This document shows, piece after piece, positions 3,699 through 30,144 of a stretch of DNA of 33,358 bases (position 1 is the first letter of the stretch; every line of letters begins with the position of its first letter). The stretch is from Planctomycetota bacterium (lineage in GTDB: Bacteria; Planctomycetota; Planctomycetia; Planctomycetales; Planctomycetaceae): NCBI GenBank assembly GCA_027618475.1, contig JAQCEJ010000057.1:1-33358 (forward strand), read 5' to 3'. The translations under genes were made by a program, and so were the position numbers. The notes beneath the pieces are model-generated. The model searched no databases, was not told the DNA's origin, and worked only from the letters and a program-made list of their open reading frames with translations.

Positions 3699-5462
3699 CT
3701 ACACTCCGCGATTTCGCTGAGGTGATATGATCACTGACTTGAGCACCTCTGGATGTTCGGCAGCAACATTGGTTGTTTCGCCGGGGTCGGTTTTGAGGTT
3801 GTAGAGTTCGAGATCTTCCATACCGTCGACGCCGGCGGGGCGGACGACTTTCCACTCTCCCTTGCGGACCGCTTGAGTGAATGACGGCGATTCCATTTGC
3901 CAATACAACAGATCGTCTCGCTGTGCATCGGATCCACCAAAGATCTTTACAAGTGATTGACCATCGAGTGTTCTCGGTCGCCGCTGGGCACTCGCGATTT
4001 CGGCGATGGTCGGATACAGGTCGCATAATGTAGCCGGGTAGTCGGAGACCGAACCCGCTTTTGTGCGACCAGACCAACGCATCAGACACGGAACACGCAA
4101 GGCTCCCTCGTGGAGCTTGCCCGGTTCCATTCGTAGGTCGTCAGTACTGGCAAAATATTCGCGTCCGGGTGTCCCCAGATGCGGACTGTTGTCGCTGGTG
4201 ACAATCACAACGGTGTTGTTCGCAAGATTCCGACGATCGAGCGTTTCCAGCAATCGGCCAATTTCGAGATCGAGCTGTGTGATACGTGCGGCATGCTGTT
4301 TCTTGCCGGCGGGCCAATTCTCGTTCGCGTAGGGCGTATCGGGAATGTTACGTGTCTCGACATTTGCCGACGGGAGTGGATAAGAAACTACCAAAAAAAA
4401 CGGACGGCGTTCATCTTCACGTTCCAGATATCTTACGGCTTCCTCAGTGAAGATTTCGGTTGCCACAATTCCCTGCTTGCCATCAGCATTCGCCGAAATT
4501 CCGATCTTCGAATGGTTACTCCAAATGATTTCAGGAAACAGATCGGTTTGATCGAGAGTGTCAGCCGTTCCCCACCATTCATCGAATCCATGCGACAAAG
4601 GATAATCATCCGCCGTGTCACCACGCATTCCCCATTTACCGATCCAGGCGGTATCATAGCTTGCCTGCCACATCATCTCGGCAAGCGTCATGTTGCTGCT
4701 CTGAAGTGCGGGGGGCCATTCGACCTCTTTCGGAAGATGTCCCGTATGCCGGCCAGACATCAAGCACCAGCGGGAAATCGCCCCGTCGGGACTGTTGGCA
4801 TAGAAACCGGTAAACCGAATTCCTTCGCGGGCCAGTCGATCAAGATGCGGCGTTTGAATCTGCGTCTGACCATAACAACCGAGTTCGCTGGGACCGAGAT
4901 CGTCGGCTAGAATCAGTAATACATTGGGAGGCCGACGCTGATTCAAGCGAATCTGACGATTCATGTTCTTGAGCGCAGCTCGATTTTCTCGTTTGACGCG
5001 TGTCAGTGTATCGTCGGCTTCTTCGAGCATTTCCTGCAGGCCATCTTTTTGATCGCCTTGAATGATCCGATCGGAGCCGAGTAATCCTTCGATTCCGCGG
5101 ATGAGCGGATTTTTCGATTTTATTGGTTGCGGCTCGACGGGGTCGGTAAGTTGTGAAACCGGATCATCCGGCAGTTCGATATTAGGTTGGTCTCTGAGAG
5201 GAACATCGCTTGTGCGATCGACTTCGTCATTCGATTGACGATCGTCGGTAGCAAGATGAGAGGCGAGCCCCTCCTGGTGAACGTCGCGCTGTGCCGACGG
5301 CAACGGCTTTTTCACTTGCGGTTCTTCGTCAATGACGGCACCACAACCATTGAGGATCGAACAGCTCCAGACGATAGCAATCGACGGGATAACAGTGTAA
5401 AAATTTGTCGGCCACGAAGTGCGAAATGTCCCGCCGGCGCGATATTGATTGCGACAGTTCAT
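3699..5462 (-). CDS. Lipoprotein sulfatase homologue lacking the catalytic Cys (probable pseudoenzyme)
   Basis: A 587-residue member of the type I sulfatase / alkaline phosphatase superfamily. The N-terminus has a hydrophobic segment and a lipobox-like L-N-G-C (Cys40), suggesting a lipid-anchored envelope protein. A polar linker and a short charged helical stretch follow, and the sulfatase domain starts near residue 178 (NVLLILADDLG). Metal-ligand motifs are kept: Asp-Asp 187-188 and TSDN at about 422-425. The formylglycine signature C-x-P-x-R, normally just before the S/TGRHTGH block, reads G-A-I-S-R (Gly227 in place of Cys), and the usual Pro-His of the YxxPHANxE motif reads Pro-Ser (Ser365). 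The domain also ends abruptly after TDPGETTNVAAEHPEVLK. Standard sulfatase catalysis should therefore be impossible. Binding, regulation, or a gene in decay are the alternatives. ATG 5462 has GGGGA 7 nt upstream; an in-frame TTG lies at 5480. Confidence 0.8.
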   Translation of the reverse strand: MNCRNQYRAGGTFRTSWPTNFYTVIPSIAIVWSCSILNGCGAVIDEEPQVKKPLPSAQRDVHQEGLASHLATDDRQSNDEVDRTSDVPLRDQPNIELPDDPVSQLTDPVEPQPIKSKNPLIRGIEGLLGSDRIIQGDQKDGLQEMLEEADDTLTRVKRENRAALKNMNRQIRLNQRRPPNVLLILADDLGPSELGCYGQTQIQTPHLDRLAREGIRFTGFYANSPDGAISRWCLMSGRHTGHLPKEVEWPPALQSSNMTLAEMMWQASYDTAWIGKWGMRGDTADDYPLSHGFDEWWGTADTLDQTDLFPEIIWSNHSKIGISANADGKQGIVATEIFTEEAVRYLEREDERRPFFLVVSYPLPSANVETRNIPDTPYANENWPAGKKQHAARITQLDLEIGRLLETLDRRNLANNTVVIVTSDNSPHLGTPGREYFASTDDLRMEPGKLHEGALRVPCLMRWSGRTKAGSVSDYPATLCDLYPTIAEIASAQRRPRTLDGQSLVKIFGGSDAQRDDLLYWQMESPSFTQAVRKGEWKVVRPAGVDGMEDLELYNLKTDPGETTNVAAEHPEVLKSVIISPQRNRGV

Positions 5463-5709
5463 GTCATCGTCCCCAGTCAATCATCGAGATCCGAATTCCA
5501 TGTAAACATACTATTTTTAAAACGGCCCCCCAAAGTGTAACGAGGATCGGGTGGAATTTACGCCACAACATCAGTACGCACCGCGACCCGTGAGAATTGC
5601 CAGAATTTACTCACCCCCCTATCGTACGCGAATTCGACAAGAATAGTCAACATGCGAAGAGTGAGTAGAAATCGCAATCAAGAGGAATTACAGGGCCATC
5701 GTGAGGCGA

Positions 5710-16811: not shown

Positions 16812-18209
16812 ATGGTTTTGCTTCGTCGCTGTTTTCACTTCGCGTTCAATCTCGGGTTACTTGGCTTGATGTTTAATGTAGCGAACATCGCGGAAGCCGA
16901 TGACAAAACCACGCGGCATGTCATCGTGATCAGCGTTGATGGCTTACCCGCTTATTTATTCGACGATCCCAATGCCTCGATGAAGACGATTCGCGGGCTC
17001 GCCGCGAACGGTGCCGTCGCCGCCGGGATGACGGTGTCGAATCCATCGGTGACGTGGCCGAACCATACGTCGCTGGTCACTGGTGTACGGCCTGAAAAAC
17101 ATGGCGTGCTGTTCAACGGCGTGCTCGAAAAGGCAGGGCCAGGTCTGCCGATTAACGTCAATCCACACAAAACCAAATCAGAACTCGTCCGCGTGCGAAC
17201 TGTTGTTGACGTTGCCCACGAACAAGGACTGCGGACGGCCGGTATCAACTGGCCCTGCACGCGGAATTCCGGGACGCTGGACGTCGATTTCCCCGATTCG
17301 CCCGATACGTTTCAGTTTTCCACGCCGGAATTTCTTGACAGCCTGAAGCAAGCGAATTTGCTCTCCGATGAGATGATCGGCAATTTTACGAAGTACAGCG
17401 TCGTGAAGCGTGATGAAATCTGGACCGATGCAGTTTGCCATGTGATCCGCGAGCAAAAACCGCACCTTGTGTTGTTTCATCCCCTGAATGTCGATGCCGT
17501 CCATCATCGTTATGGACCGCAGACATGGGCTGGGTATTCGGCGGTCGCGTTCGCCGATGCCTGCATTCGTCGAGTGCTGGATGCCGTCGACAATGCGGGG
17601 ATTCGAGACACGACGACGATTTTTGTCGTCTCCGATCATGGATTCAACACGATTCCCAAAACGTTGCAGCCGAATGTGGTTCTTCGTCAAGCGGGATTGT
17701 TGACGGTCGAAGCGAACAAAGTCACCGCCACGCGTGCACATGTCTTTCCCGAAGGAGGGATCGGAATGTTGTACCTCACGGTCCCCGAGAAGAAGGAAGA
17801 AGACCGTAATAAAGTCGTCGAGTTGTTCGGAGGTCTTGAAGGAATCGATTCGATCGTGCTTCCCGATGAATTTGCGAAATACGGTTTACCGCAGCCCGAC
17901 GAGTACGAGCAGATGGCCGATATCATTCTTGTCGCCAAACCAGGTTATGGTTTTTCCGGCACAGCGACCGGCGACGAGTTCGTAATCCCAAGCACCAACG
18001 TGCTTGGTACGCACGGTTTTCTTTCGACCGATCCCAGGATGAATGCCACATTTGTCGTCTCCGGCGCGGGGATCACACCGGGCGTGACATTGCCCGTCAT
18101 CAACAACATCGACGTCGCCCCGACGGTGGCGCGTCTGCTCGGTCTGACGTTGGACGACGTCGACGGCCGTGTGCTGACGGAAGTACTGGATGATTCGAAT
18201 GCGAAGTGA
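16812..18209 (+). CDS. Secreted type I phosphodiesterase/nucleotide pyrophosphatase family protein
   Basis: 465 residues with an N-terminal signal peptide ending near AEA-DD (about residue 30). It belongs to the alkaline phosphatase superfamily, Phosphodiest type (ectonucleotide pyrophosphatase-like). Active-site residues are visible: Asp43 in VISVDGLPAY, the nucleophile Thr81 with Asn84 in SVTWPNHTSLVTG, a D-A-V-H-H pair near 230, VSDHGFN near 276 and GTHGF near 400. These supply the two-zinc site, so it should be catalytically competent on phosphodiesters or phosphonates outside the cytoplasm. AGGAG lies 7 nt upstream of ATG 16812. Its stop codon is separated by one base from the stop of the convergent mscL gene. 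Confidence 0.9.
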   Translation: MVLLRRCFHFAFNLGLLGLMFNVANIAEADDKTTRHVIVISVDGLPAYLFDDPNASMKTIRGLAANGAVAAGMTVSNPSVTWPNHTSLVTGVRPEKHGVLFNGVLEKAGPGLPINVNPHKTKSELVRVRTVVDVAHEQGLRTAGINWPCTRNSGTLDVDFPDSPDTFQFSTPEFLDSLKQANLLSDEMIGNFTKYSVVKRDEIWTDAVCHVIREQKPHLVLFHPLNVDAVHHRYGPQTWAGYSAVAFADACIRRVLDAVDNAGIRDTTTIFVVSDHGFNTIPKTLQPNVVLRQAGLLTVEANKVTATRAHVFPEGGIGMLYLTVPEKKEEDRNKVVELFGGLEGIDSIVLPDEFAKYGLPQPDEYEQMADIILVAKPGYGFSGTATGDEFVIPSTNVLGTHGFLSTDPRMNATFVVSGAGITPGVTLPVINNIDVAPTVARLLGLTLDDVDGRVLTEVLDDSNAK

Positions 18210-26185: not shown

Positions 26186-27076
26186 ATGATGCCTGCAAAT
26201 CCAAATTCTCCCGGAAAACAACTGCGTCTTGTGTTATCACAAGGCCCAGTCGCTATTCCGGGGGTTTTTAATGCGCTGACGGCAAAAATCGCCGAGAGTA
26301 AAGGGTTCTCGGTCCTCTATCAATCGGGTGCAGCCCTTTCCGCAGGGTTGGCTGGACTGCCGGATATAGGCCTCGTTTCACAGACAGAGTTCGCCGAGCA
26401 GTCGCGGTATCTCACCAGCTCGGTGAGCGTACCGATTATCAGTGATGCCGACACCGGTTTCGGTGAAGCATTCGCCGTTCAACGGACGGTCGAACTCTTC
26501 GAAGCCGCGGGACTCGCAGGACTTCATATCGAAGACCAGGTACTCCCGAAACGATGTGGGCACCTCAGCGGAAAATCATTGATCGGGACGACGGAGATGA
26601 TGCAGAAAATTCGTGCCGCCGTTGCTGGTCGGAGAGATCCTGATTTTGTGATTATCGCCCGTACCGATGCACGAGGAGTCGAAAGCCTAGCCGGAGCCAT
26701 CGAACGAGGACAGGCGTATGTCGACGCTGGAGCGGATGTCGTTTTTCCTGAAGCATTGGAGACACCCGAAGAATTCGCCTCATTTGCACAAGCAATGAGA
26801 GTCCCGTTGATCGCCAATATGACCGAATTCGGCAAGAGTCCGCTTTTGTCCGTCGCTGAACTTGGAAAGCTCGGCTACGCGGGCGTGCTGTTTCCAGTTA
26901 CGCTGCTACGTTCGGCGATGAAAGCTGCCGAAAAAATGCTCGATGAGATTGCTGCAACAGGGACTCAGCGGCAAAACCTGGGTGACATGATGACACGAGC
27001 GGAGTTGTACGAGCTTCTCGGTTATCACGACTATGAAAAACGCGATCGATCCTTTTTCGGGAATGATAGTCAATGA
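26186..27076 (+). CDS. prpB: Isocitrate lyase/PEP mutase family enzyme, methylisocitrate lyase-like
   Basis: 296-residue cytoplasmic lyase. It follows PrpB closely: AIPGVFNALTAKIAE, the Mg-binding SDADTGFG at 86-93, HIEDQVLPKRCGH with catalytic Cys124, then DPDFVIIARTDA, YVDAGADVVFPEAL, IANMTEFGKSP and the C-terminal TRAELYELLGYHDYE. The K-R-C-G-H form is that of methylisocitrate lyase (2-methylisocitrate to pyruvate plus succinate) rather than isocitrate lyase. No prpC (citrate synthase) or prpD (dehydratase) is in the window, so a different 2,3-disubstituted malate could be the substrate. ATG 26186 begins 1 nt after the oxidoreductase stop, and a second ATG follows at once. The 3' end overlaps the convergent gene by 7 nt. 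Confidence 0.82.
   Translation: MMPANPNSPGKQLRLVLSQGPVAIPGVFNALTAKIAESKGFSVLYQSGAALSAGLAGLPDIGLVSQTEFAEQSRYLTSSVSVPIISDADTGFGEAFAVQRTVELFEAAGLAGLHIEDQVLPKRCGHLSGKSLIGTTEMMQKIRAAVAGRRDPDFVIIARTDARGVESLAGAIERGQAYVDAGADVVFPEALETPEEFASFAQAMRVPLIANMTEFGKSPLLSVAELGKLGYAGVLFPVTLLRSAMKAAEKMLDEIAATGTQRQNLGDMMTRAELYELLGYHDYEKRDRSFFGNDSQ
26228..26243. promoter_or_regulatory. Second TGTGTTAT-containing inverted repeat, inside prpB
   Basis: CTTGTG-TTAT-CACAAG has perfect 6-bp arms around 4 nt and shares the core TGTGTTAT with the palindrome at 24844. It lies in codons 15-20 of the lyase gene, so the match may be coincidental. Confidence 0.2.
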
Positions 27077-28353
27077 TGTGCTGAATCATCACCTTTCGCG
27101 TTTGATTCATCGACCGCTGTGAAATCTTCCATTTCTTCCGGATGCTCTACTTCCCAGCGCTTCCAGAAATCAGCCGGTCGAGTTTGTCGCCAAAGTGCCA
27201 GTGCATTGCCAACGTGGCTGTAGAAGGTGAATTTCCCTTGAATTGCCTCAAAGTTTTGTGACTTCGTCGTCTCGATGATCCACTTGGCGGCACGTTCGAT
27301 CTGCTCGTGCGGCGGATGCAGTTCTTTCGGTGCGATCGACAACCATTCGAGATGATGACCAGTGGAAATCACGTCTTCGTGAAGGGGGCTGACAATCGGC
27401 GTCTCGACGGCCGTCTTTCCCAGCCACCAATTGTCGGGCCATCGTCCGTCCGGAAGTTGTGAGACAACCAGAATATCGCGAATGTCGCCGAGATGCGCCA
27501 ACACTTTTTCTCGAACGGATGGAGTGAGGATATCGAATTCATCATCGAGGCGGATAAGCACCATCAGTGAATACAGTCGATGCGTTCCGGAGCAGACACC
27601 ATATTTGTTGTGCCCACGGAGTTGTCGTTCGGCAAGATCATCGAACGACAGCGTACGACCATCTTGCGACGTCCATTGTTTGATGGGTGGCAACCACAAT
27701 CCGAAAGCAAGAACAGTCCATTCGGTCTCACGTTCATCGAGACGAAAATCGAGCAACGACTGATGCAGCACACTTTCGATTGTCATCGATCTTTGGCCGG
27801 GTGTGAAAACCGGCTCGTGTAATGAGACCCCAGCTTCAGTCAAGCATGCAAGCCAATGATCGTGATGTACCGATGCGCCGGTTTCGCGCCCCCAACGAAT
27901 GGAAATACCTTCCGGCTGTTCCTGCAATAACGGTGCAACGTCATTGCCCCACGAGACAAGATACTTGCCGTGATCGATGAGAAAATCTCGCATCTCGATG
28001 CCGGACATTACCTCTGGATCTCGGAATTCGGCATCGACTCCCCACGTCCTCAGTGCATGTTCGACAAAATTCGGCTTTAACTGCTTCTGATCAAAACGGG
28101 GACGTACTTTCGACAGCACGGCTGCAAGATCGGCGTCACTGATCATTTCAGGTTCGTCGTACAATCCAGCGATTCGCAACGGCAGTTCTCGAGGGACTTT
28201 ATCCGAAGTGGCTGATGTCGCAAGCGTTGCATCCTCTTGCACTGAAATGGTGCGACTCGTCGAAGAAGACAAGGACCATGAGCCACCCCAGCCTGCGATT
28301 ATCGCAATCTGCAGGATCAATACGAATTTTGTAGAAATGGAGGATTGTCGCAT
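27070..28353 (-). CDS. Exported or membrane-anchored protein of unknown function
   Basis: 427 residues. A hydrophobic N-terminal stretch (FVLILQIAIIAGWGGSW) acts as signal peptide or anchor, and the rest is extracytoplasmic. I do not recognise a family. The body is helix-rich and has paired-helix phrases ending in aromatic residues (HNKYGVCSGTHRLYSLMVLIRL, split by short loops; LPDGRWPDNWW; ISTGHHLEWLSIAP), reminiscent of alpha/alpha-toroid proteins such as terpene-cyclase/prenyltransferase-like folds. His and Cys residues (YGVCSGTHR, STGHH) could form a metal site as in that fold class, but this is speculative. The C-terminal tail is acidic (EHPEEMEDFTAVDESN). It converges on and overlaps the lyase gene by 7 nt. 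ATG 28353 has only a weak ribosome site. Confidence 0.75.
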   Translation of the reverse strand: MRQSSISTKFVLILQIAIIAGWGGSWSLSSSTSRTISVQEDATLATSATSDKVPRELPLRIAGLYDEPEMISDADLAAVLSKVRPRFDQKQLKPNFVEHALRTWGVDAEFRDPEVMSGIEMRDFLIDHGKYLVSWGNDVAPLLQEQPEGISIRWGRETGASVHHDHWLACLTEAGVSLHEPVFTPGQRSMTIESVLHQSLLDFRLDERETEWTVLAFGLWLPPIKQWTSQDGRTLSFDDLAERQLRGHNKYGVCSGTHRLYSLMVLIRLDDEFDILTPSVREKVLAHLGDIRDILVVSQLPDGRWPDNWWLGKTAVETPIVSPLHEDVISTGHHLEWLSIAPKELHPPHEQIERAAKWIIETTKSQNFEAIQGKFTFYSHVGNALALWRQTRPADFWKRWEVEHPEEMEDFTAVDESNAKGDDSAHH

Positions 28354-28488
28354 GATAATTGATTCCGTATCGATTTCCCGGGGCGGCCGGTATGAATTTC
28401 AAAACAATAATTGACTTGAACGTGGCAACATAATAGTCGATGACATCCCTGCGAATTCATGAAGGATTATGAAATGAGGCGAATGATG

Positions 28489-30144
28489 TCAGATCGGTAC
28501 TTTGCGCTCGAAGATCACTGCGGTCCCGTCGTCGAGTTTGAGTTCCCATTTGTCACTATTTTTCATTACGTTGATGAGGGCTTCGCGATATCGATGATCG
28601 ATCACCACGGTATTCACGCCGTAACGTTCGAGTTGTTCGTCCCAACCGGAGCCCAGCTCGACAATGTGCATATAGGCTTGCCAGACTTCAACCGGTACAA
28701 GGTGGGCATGTGACGCGACGAAAACCTGAAGATTTTCGGGACCGGCCCACAGCAGATAATCACCCCACTCGTAAGTATTAAAAATTTGCCCACGCGGCGG
28801 ATTTTCATGCAGATATTTCACTGCTCCCAGAGGCGTGAATTGCGAGACAGCTTTTTGTTGTTCAGGAATACGACCATGCATGATCGCTCCTCCCAATGGT
28901 GCTATCGCCAGCGAAATCCAGATGAGGCCAATCGATGCAACAGTCCACATCCCTTTGGTTTCTCGAACCGATTCGACTCTTTTGCGCGATCTCCTCGCGT
29001 TCCATGCGGCGTGACCATGCAGGGCGAAAAACCACGCGGCCCACGGTGCCCACCAGACGATGAACCGCGATGACCACATCGTCCCACAGCCGAGCCCGAT
29101 CAGGATGAGTATCTCACTAGTAGAGATGCGTCGTGGACTGAACCGCAGGACGGCTATTAATGCCAGCGCAACTGTGACGAAAATTTTTCCCTGTCGCATT
29201 CGTAGCGTCAACGGTTGCCACTCGACGAGATCGCTCAGGTTGGATGTCGCGGAAAACGATAGCACTTCGCGATAGAGCTGCACTCCATATGGATTCAGCA
29301 GAACTGCAGTCGCTGCTAATTCCAACAGGAGCAGATCGTGCCTAAACGATGTATCTTTCCAAATCGTTGCGCTGGTTTTTGTCCGCCTCAATAGATCGAA
29401 GGCACGGCCGACAACGCATGCCGCGAGGCAGGAAAGCCCCACGATGAACGACCCATGTAAATTCGCCCAAGCCGCGAACAACACCGGGATGGTCACCAAT
29501 TGCCATCTCGTTCGATGGCGCGAGGTCAGCATTAACCATAAGAGAGCAAAGCAAACCTGACCGGCGATCTGCGGTCGTGCGATGCTCCATTGCATCCAAT
29601 TGAGAGCAATCAAAACGCTCATACCGGCGAGCGTCCACACGACATGTTCGGTCTTTCGATAACAACGCCAGACGAACAGTACCAGACACCCTGTGATCCC
29701 CGCTGCAAACAAAGCCTGAATCGCAGCTACGGAATAGAGCTGATATGACTGATAGCCAATCCACTGACTCAACCATTCGGTATCGACAAACGGCATACCA
29801 GTCGATAACGGCATCAGAGGTTCGGTGACAGGGATGTGCCCGGTTGTGGCTATCCAGCGTCCATACGAAAGATGTCCCCACAGATCAGTATGCCACAATG
29901 GCAAATAACTCAATAGGATAAAAATGACGGCCAATACCGACGTCAGCAGTGGTACCGCCAACGTGACGCGCCAGCGCTCGGGAAGATGGTCTTCCAGCAT
30001 ACCGGCGTGAGCCAAGGGGACATCGCTCCCATGTTCCGACGATGGTATTTCATCACACGAGCCGTGTTGATCTGACATCGCCGTATCATCAGGCAACGTC
30101 ATTGAATTTGTTCCGTTTGAGGAAGTGGGGGAATTTATGGGCAT
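28489..30144 (-). CDS. Polytopic membrane protein, GT-C glycosyltransferase-like
   Basis: 551 residues. A polar N-terminal tail of about 55 residues is followed by roughly ten hydrophobic helices between residues 60 and 440, then a soluble C-terminal domain of about 110 residues. The first extracytoplasmic loop carries an acidic residue in HTDLWGHLSYGRWI (Asp about 87), the position of the catalytic Asp in GT-C enzymes of the oligosaccharyltransferase/mannosyltransferase type. The C-terminal part has GQIFNTYEWGDYLLW and VNTVVIDHRY, typical of bacterial proteins of this sort. It may transfer a sugar from a polyprenyl-phosphate donor outside the membrane, but no donor or acceptor is readable. 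Several in-frame ATGs within the N-terminal tail leave the exact start open. It is followed after 135 nt by the unknown exported gene on the same strand. Confidence 0.78.
   Translation of the reverse strand: MPINSPTSSNGTNSMTLPDDTAMSDQHGSCDEIPSSEHGSDVPLAHAGMLEDHLPERWRVTLAVPLLTSVLAVIFILLSYLPLWHTDLWGHLSYGRWIATTGHIPVTEPLMPLSTGMPFVDTEWLSQWIGYQSYQLYSVAAIQALFAAGITGCLVLFVWRCYRKTEHVVWTLAGMSVLIALNWMQWSIARPQIAGQVCFALLWLMLTSRHRTRWQLVTIPVLFAAWANLHGSFIVGLSCLAACVVGRAFDLLRRTKTSATIWKDTSFRHDLLLLELAATAVLLNPYGVQLYREVLSFSATSNLSDLVEWQPLTLRMRQGKIFVTVALALIAVLRFSPRRISTSEILILIGLGCGTMWSSRFIVWWAPWAAWFFALHGHAAWNARRSRKRVESVRETKGMWTVASIGLIWISLAIAPLGGAIMHGRIPEQQKAVSQFTPLGAVKYLHENPPRGQIFNTYEWGDYLLWAGPENLQVFVASHAHLVPVEVWQAYMHIVELGSGWDEQLERYGVNTVVIDHRYREALINVMKNSDKWELKLDDGTAVIFERKVPI

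Follow-up and report, generated by a model that had tools for sequence, protein, structure and literature searches.

The closest described relatives of the protein reported here are the S1 sulfatases. Their formylglycine motif is (C/S)xPxR, in which Ala is the chief substitute for Pro (PMC5066984), and the catalytic and calcium-binding residues in AtsA numbering are Asp13, Asp14, Arg55, His211, Asp317, Asn318, and Lys375 (PMC6388578). Planctomycetes are known to carry such genes in very large numbers, e.g., 104 sulfatase genes in Rhodopirellula baltica (PMC5066984). The same paper, which describes SulfAtlas, suspects nine sequences from Lentisphaerae and Planctomycetes of being inactive, the positively charged residue being lost to Ile or Leu, and advises that Thr-containing PF00884 proteins should not be called sulfatases. 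A second group of relevant systems is the Tad-type pili, in which the minor pilins TadE, TadF, and TadG have been argued, from the Kil system of Myxococcus, to form tips that customize the pilus (PMC12075869). Pili-like fibers were found at the crateriform structures of planctomycetes, and uptake of macromolecules by these structures was speculated (Boedeker et al., 2017; PMC5394234). A search of the open-licence literature returned no paper on the protein described below, anything returned dealing with other topics as judged by title and abstract.

The gene lies on the minus strand of contig JAQCEJ010000057.1 from a member of the Planctomycetaceae, analyzed over its whole length of 33,358 nt (hereafter the window). 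An intact ORF at 3699–5480 encodes 593 aa from a TTG codon, or 587 aa from the ATG at 5462; the shorter CDS (3699–5462, stop included) is used for residue numbering unless stated otherwise. GC content by codon position was similar to that of six other genes of the window, so the gene looks like a normal coding gene. The protein starts with a predicted signal/anchor region (residues 1–40; 5343–5462, minus strand) that ends in a match to the lipobox pattern, L-N-G-C at residues 37–40, where it may be lipidated. A helical linker module, delimited by a linker profile and an AlphaFold2 model, occupies residues 116–178 (4929–5117, minus strand; NPLIRGIEGLL...LEEADD...NRAALKNMNRQ). It is followed by a sulfatase-fold domain at residues 178–586 (3705–4931, minus strand), identified by Pfam (Sulfatase, PF00884, E 6e-44, residues 185–496 of the 593-aa frame), AlphaFold2, and Foldseek. 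The AlphaFold2 model, built on an alignment of 13 sequences that held no orthologue of the window protein, had a mean pLDDT of 71 and a pTM of 0.74. Foldseek searches with this model retrieved S1 sulfatase structures (best E 5e-30), and the nearest solved chains were 7ana/7anb, 7an1/7oqd, 6psm (S1_19), and 9fo1 (S1_16). For 6psm, 7an1, 7oqd, 7anb, and 9fo1, E-values ranged from 5e-30 to 1e-26 at 27–30% identity, with TM-scores of 0.68–0.71 when normalized by target. The window protein thus resembles S1 sulfatases (PF00884) in its fold and its C-terminal region. Sulfatase matches occurred at 40 places in the genome, the window gene included. Gene content (DUF1501, DUF1559, and numerous sulfatases) also points to planctomycetes as the source of this genome and its relatives. 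The window also encodes a second protein of the alkaline phosphatase superfamily (16812–18209, plus strand; PF01663, also PF00884 at E 4e-8).

Unlike S1 sulfatases, the window protein has no Cys or Ser nucleophile and its Pro-His pair is broken. The codons at 4770–4784 (minus strand; GGG GCG ATT TCC CGC) read Gly-Ala-Ile-Ser-Arg, a degenerate motif at residues 227–231 that replaces C-x-P-x-R. In an alignment with nine intact relatives, the Cys is changed to Gly, the Pro at +2 to Ile, and the His of the Pro-His pair to Ser, the last within PLPSANVE (residues 362–369; 4356–4379, minus strand). The residues kept are the DD pair (187–188, within ADDLG; 4893–4907, minus strand), the DN pair (within SDNSPH, residues 423–428; 4179–4196, minus strand), the Arg at +4, and the Lys of GKWGM (4626–4640, minus strand); the SGRHTGH block is at residues 236–242. 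The Gly of GKWGM was considered as a third catalytic loss, from His, and ruled out, because eight of the nine intact relatives also have Gly there. A preliminary description of this gene had given the same codons, the same kept motifs, the Pro-Ser in place of Pro-His, and a frame open over 587 codons despite the loss of two catalytic positions; all of these held when the codons, residue positions, and alignment were read again.

A search of related genomes gave matches in 59 of them, mostly at 33–45% identity among the matches listed. C-A-P-S-R is encoded at 28 of the 29 loci retrieved from other genomes. The highest identity among the matches listed (45%) was to locus L031, which was discarded as an orthologue, being an intact CAPSR sulfatase with no linker; its open frame of ~980 aa (G008:C9) holds two tandem sulfatase domains, with the Cys motif in both as judged by eye. 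The single exception to C-A-P-S-R was L032, from another genus, which lacks the Cys and has the N-terminal linker in common with the window protein. The two proteins are ~38% identical overall and their linkers 43% identical.

The linker was accordingly a marker by which relatives could be retrieved. A linker-only profile matched in 27 of 170 genomes of the taxonomic family, and a 26-row linker profile in 31 of the 170, spread over 14 of 58 genera with one match per genome; with the latter profile the linker was undetected in the other 139. In a class-wide sample there were matches in 30 of 397 genomes, 11 of them beyond the family: seven pseudosulfatases (six from one genus of family f5, one from f19), three small linker-only proteins that matched weakly (E 6e-6 to 6e-4), plus an apparent chance match. 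A phylum-wide sample gave matches in 11 of 392 genomes, every one inside the class; the three samples overlap. In all, the ~63-aa linker retrieved 35 full-length proteins, 28 from the same family and seven from elsewhere in the class. Left out of this set were L127 (judged a chance coiled-coil match), the linker-only L126, L128, and L129, the truncated L117 and L118, and a copy in genome G139 whose sequence was not read.

None of the 35 members has Cys at the nucleophile position, compared with all of 44 rows of intact sulfatases (43 genes), each of which carries C-x-P/A-x-R. These rows were matches with phmmer scores of 100 or more, each locus entering once and duplicates being dropped; L007 and L011 are one gene. 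A base-calling error, which had been named beforehand as a possible source of the missing Cys, is an unlikely explanation because 34 further members of the family lack it as well. The position is taken instead by Pro (10 members), Ser (6), Leu (4), Val (4), Thr (3), Gly (2), Ala (2), Asp (2), or Tyr (2). The rest of the site is eroded: both Asp of the DD pair are present in 4 of 35 members, the DN pair and the GKW Lys in one each (the window protein), and the His of the Pro-His pair in none, while the Arg at +4 is kept in 19. The residue after this Arg is Trp in 19 of 35 members, compared with Cys in all nine intact relatives. The Pro of an RVP motif (34/35) and the Trp of a WK motif (35/35) are conserved. 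Erosion is slightest in the window protein, with all four metal ligands (D, D, D, N) in place, at least one of which is missing in each of the other 34. The preliminary description had noted the retained metal site, which is correct for the window protein and does not extend to the family.

Could the site have changed its chemistry? Members with Ser or Thr at the old position might retain some activity, or the alkaline phosphatase-superfamily fold might catalyze another reaction. Four of 35 members read S-x-A-x-R, near the serine-type formylglycine motif given in PMC5066984, and could in principle, going by the motif, be serine-type formylglycine substrates; three others have Thr at the nucleophile position. 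The commonest replacement, however, is Pro, and Leu, Val, Gly, and others also occur, with Gly in the window protein; each of the four S-x-A-x-R members is missing two or more of the four metal ligands, the catalytic His being absent throughout. We consider a residual or switched enzyme very improbable.

In phylogenetic analysis the family fell on one side of a branch. In a tree of the sulfatase domain with 36 rows, one branch separated 27 pseudosulfatases from the nine intact proteins (support 100/99), and in a 79-row tree (35 + 44) made with the motif left out, one branch again separated the groups, with an SH-aLRT of 95 by a quick method. The internal branching order is unsure because of long branches. 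The dS was usable for 11 of 14 close pairs, and in these dN/dS was ~0.08–0.22 (NG86), e.g., dN and dS of 0.026 and 0.135 (L079/L087), 0.065 and 0.66 (L065/L066), 0.113 and 1.12 (L089/L082), and 0.089 and 1.18 (L120/L123). Of the remaining three pairs, L077/L085 and L083/L088 were saturated in dS and L121/L124 gave no estimate. All pairs belong to lineages other than that of the window gene, for which no orthologue is close enough for such an estimate, L032 being only ~38% identical. These coding-sequence comparisons show purifying selection in several lineages of the pseudosulfatase family, and the suggestion in the preliminary description of a pseudoenzyme maintained by selection is supported by them, together with the loss of Cys in every full-length protein that shares the linker.

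The same results bear on the possibility that the window gene is a recently formed pseudogene derived from an ordinary sulfatase. It is an isolated copy outside the neighborhood common to its relatives, and truncated remnants do exist in genus g72, where three genomes (G131, G139, and G142) have only a 56-aa linker frame; the other 28 linker matches in the family are in long open frames. In the two g72 loci that were read, ~155 N-terminal residues of a relative were still recognizable and nothing beyond. The g72 frames are a broken remnant in one genus, and the protein therefore seems dispensable there. These 56-aa frames of the linker region (L117, L118, and L171) lie beside a gene for a Cys-rich protein that is described below. 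For the window gene itself, however, 587 codons are open with normal codon-position composition, the linker is still 43% identical to that of L032, and the orthologues, which on recent decay would have been expected to keep C-x-P-x-R, with relaxed selection on the window gene, are without Cys in all 35 cases and are under purifying selection in other lineages. Recent decay is thus largely refuted, and we give it hardly any weight.

The N-terminal region was examined across the family. In 31 of 35 members, 17 consecutive residues near the N-terminus average >1.6 in hydropathy, the other four reaching 1.2–1.6. A loose lipobox pattern matched in only eight of 35, two of them doubtful, and missed L065 (LMGC). 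Of the unusual N-terminus noted in the preliminary description, the linker is the family marker, and the lipobox, present as LNGC in the window protein, is by the loose pattern a feature of a minority of members. In the AlphaFold2 model two helices are predicted for the linker, a short one and one of 41 residues that continues into the first strand of the sulfatase fold; the module had no Pfam match in the window protein. It also seems to occur without a sulfatase domain, by weak matches, in the small secreted proteins L126, L128, and L129, which in larger regions lie at L185:9638–10060, L186:7728–8486, and L187:9746–10576. A second linker copy was seen by eye in L129/L187, and in L185 a Tad-type secretin that has a pilus N-terminal domain is encoded 1.7 kb away from the linker-only lipoprotein.

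Comparison of 20 regions around orthologues revealed recurrent pilus genes. Pfam scans of chosen neighboring proteins identified TadE, TadG-like proteins, and secretin at several loci, L147 having prepilin peptidase, RcpC, and TadA as well; homologues of these Tad-type neighbors in other loci were identified by BLAST. Short proteins resembling Flp pilins were recognized near orthologues by eye only, with no Pfam pilin match. The arrangement was tightest in genus g49, in which the genes for TadE, the pseudosulfatase, and a TadG-like protein were consecutive on one strand in all four genomes read, separated by gaps of 8–15 nt (L146, L147, and L190) or overlapping by 17 and 4 nt (L189). The three g49 TadG-like proteins that were scanned scored 19–20 bits, under the curated Pfam cut-off of 22.3 bits.

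The linkage count covered 24 of the 35 genomes with a pseudosulfatase, with TadE taken among the matches listed, against 53 control places, which were the other sulfatases, among the matches listed, of eight of those genomes (29 from G000), pieces of one gene being merged where they were listed apart (10 merged). TadE lay within 15 kb of the pseudosulfatase in 13 of 24 genomes, compared with one of 53 controls (Fisher 1.6e-7), and at the shorter distance of 5 kb the counts were 10 of 24 and 0 of 53; these counts are not independent, since the 13 linked cases come from six of 14 genera, one of which contributes five. In the other 11 genomes no TadE was found within 15 kb among the matches listed. 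RcpC gave a weaker signal within 15 kb (7/24 compared with 2/53).

In the window itself the pseudosulfatase gene has no Tad neighbors. Its contig had no TadE, RcpC, or other Tad match, such matches being on other contigs of the same genome; no pilus family was found among the window ORFs scanned; and the window protein had no TadE/Tad match in Pfam, hence is no minor pilin by Pfam. With the gene away from Tad genes in its own genome, its tie to the Tad apparatus is argued from its relatives. A conserved gene pair in the window, encoding a protein with multiple membrane segments and a ~400-aa secreted protein (27070–30144, minus strand), exists as two paralogue sets in several genomes. BLAST first hinted that these two genes (27070–28353 and 28489–30144) were a remnant of a Tad locus, which was rejected because they belong to a different paralogue set: across eight genomes, their closest homologues (43–54% identical, in four of the seven others) lie away from the pseudosulfatase, and the copies near it form a second, more distant set (25–42%), represented in G000 by a copy on contig C210.

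A further recurrent neighbor is a Cys-rich secreted protein ending in LPxLEDLL, present in 11 of the 20 loci compared. The family (YPHYAYYP..YYFRPYNY..LPxLEDLL; e.g., L167:12711–13283) occurs beside secretin/Tad genes in several loci, adjoining secretin in some, including contig C90 of the window's genome. The only member scanned (L140:8597–9187) matched nothing in Pfam at E ≤0.1. A match at E <1e-20 was present in all 31 linker genomes of the taxonomic family; among the 28 with a full pseudosulfatase, the Cys-rich gene was within ~6 kb in 18, and in the remaining 10 the best match was on another contig of a draft assembly. The protein as an exclusive partner of the pseudosulfatase is not supported, as matches (E up to 0.001) were found in 130 of 170 family genomes and, at E <1e-15, in 27 of the 139 linker-less genomes. 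Eight Cys-rich neighborhoods of linker-less genomes (L162–L166, L168, L175, and L176), some on short contigs, held no pseudosulfatase, and that of L164 holds an intact sulfatase.

The neighborhoods and the metal ligands also bear on an alternative in which the protein would be a lectin-like pseudoenzyme for polysaccharide use, its pocket binding Ca2+ and sulfate esters without cleaving them, independently of any pilus. The window protein keeps DD, DN, the Arg at +4, and the GKW Lys; its nearest solved relatives are S1 sulfatases acting on carrageenan and mucin; and its genome is rich in sulfatases. Most orthologues, however, have lost the ligands, so that a function shared by the family cannot depend on them, and the recurrent neighbors identified are pilus genes (carbohydrate-use genes being outside the count). 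We regard this alternative as unlikely, less so than decay or a change of reaction.

The window protein belongs to a conserved pseudosulfatase family, and we consider it probable, from these sequence comparisons, that it is kept as an anchored protein without catalysis, either a partner of a Tad-type surface apparatus or one of its components. The preliminary description had suggested ligand binding, sensing, or enzyme inhibition as candidate roles; the gene neighborhoods of the relatives point to a Tad-type pilus/secretin system. Most simply, an S1-sulfatase-fold domain would have lost its formylglycine nucleophile once, in an ancestor, with metal and catalytic residues lost progressively afterwards; a conserved two-helix module separates the anchor from this domain. 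The anchor would keep the pseudosulfatase in the envelope, where its helical module may dock to a secretin or minor-pilin part of the Tad-type apparatus. The sulfatase-fold head may offer a surface for binding, perhaps of glycans, or have a structural use, instead of acting as an enzyme. The more specific proposal, that a sulfatase was recruited and its catalytic center dismantled to give a component dedicated to the Tad-type pili of planctomycetes or to their secretin pore, with the two-helix module as docking piece, is put forward tentatively, at somewhat short of even chances.

Compared with the systems described so far, the family differs from S1 sulfatases in its helical module, its pilus-gene neighbors, and the absence of metal ligands in most members. 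It is similar to the suspected inactive sequences of PMC5066984 in that a motif is lost in sulfatase-like proteins of the same phylum; the description of those nine, as far as used here, mentions neither a lost Cys nor a linker nor linkage to pilus genes. The g49 gene, placed between TadE and a TadG-like gene, recalls the variable tips attributed to TadE and TadG (PMC12075869), and suggests that a non-pilin binding domain was added to a Tad pilus. Unlike those minor pilins, the window protein consists of a signal/anchor, a helical module, and a sulfatase fold.

These results describe a clear case of a sulfatase pseudoenzyme that is kept by selection and filed by Pfam under Sulfatase. The Tad-gene neighborhoods suggest a second job for the pseudosulfatase outside metabolism, and the family may offer a handle on the surface machinery of planctomycetes. 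It may belong to the fibers of the crateriform pits, which are suspected of catching macromolecules, and a conserved non-pilin protein between TadE and a TadG-like protein is an entry point for finding out which genes might make the fibers of crateriform structures.
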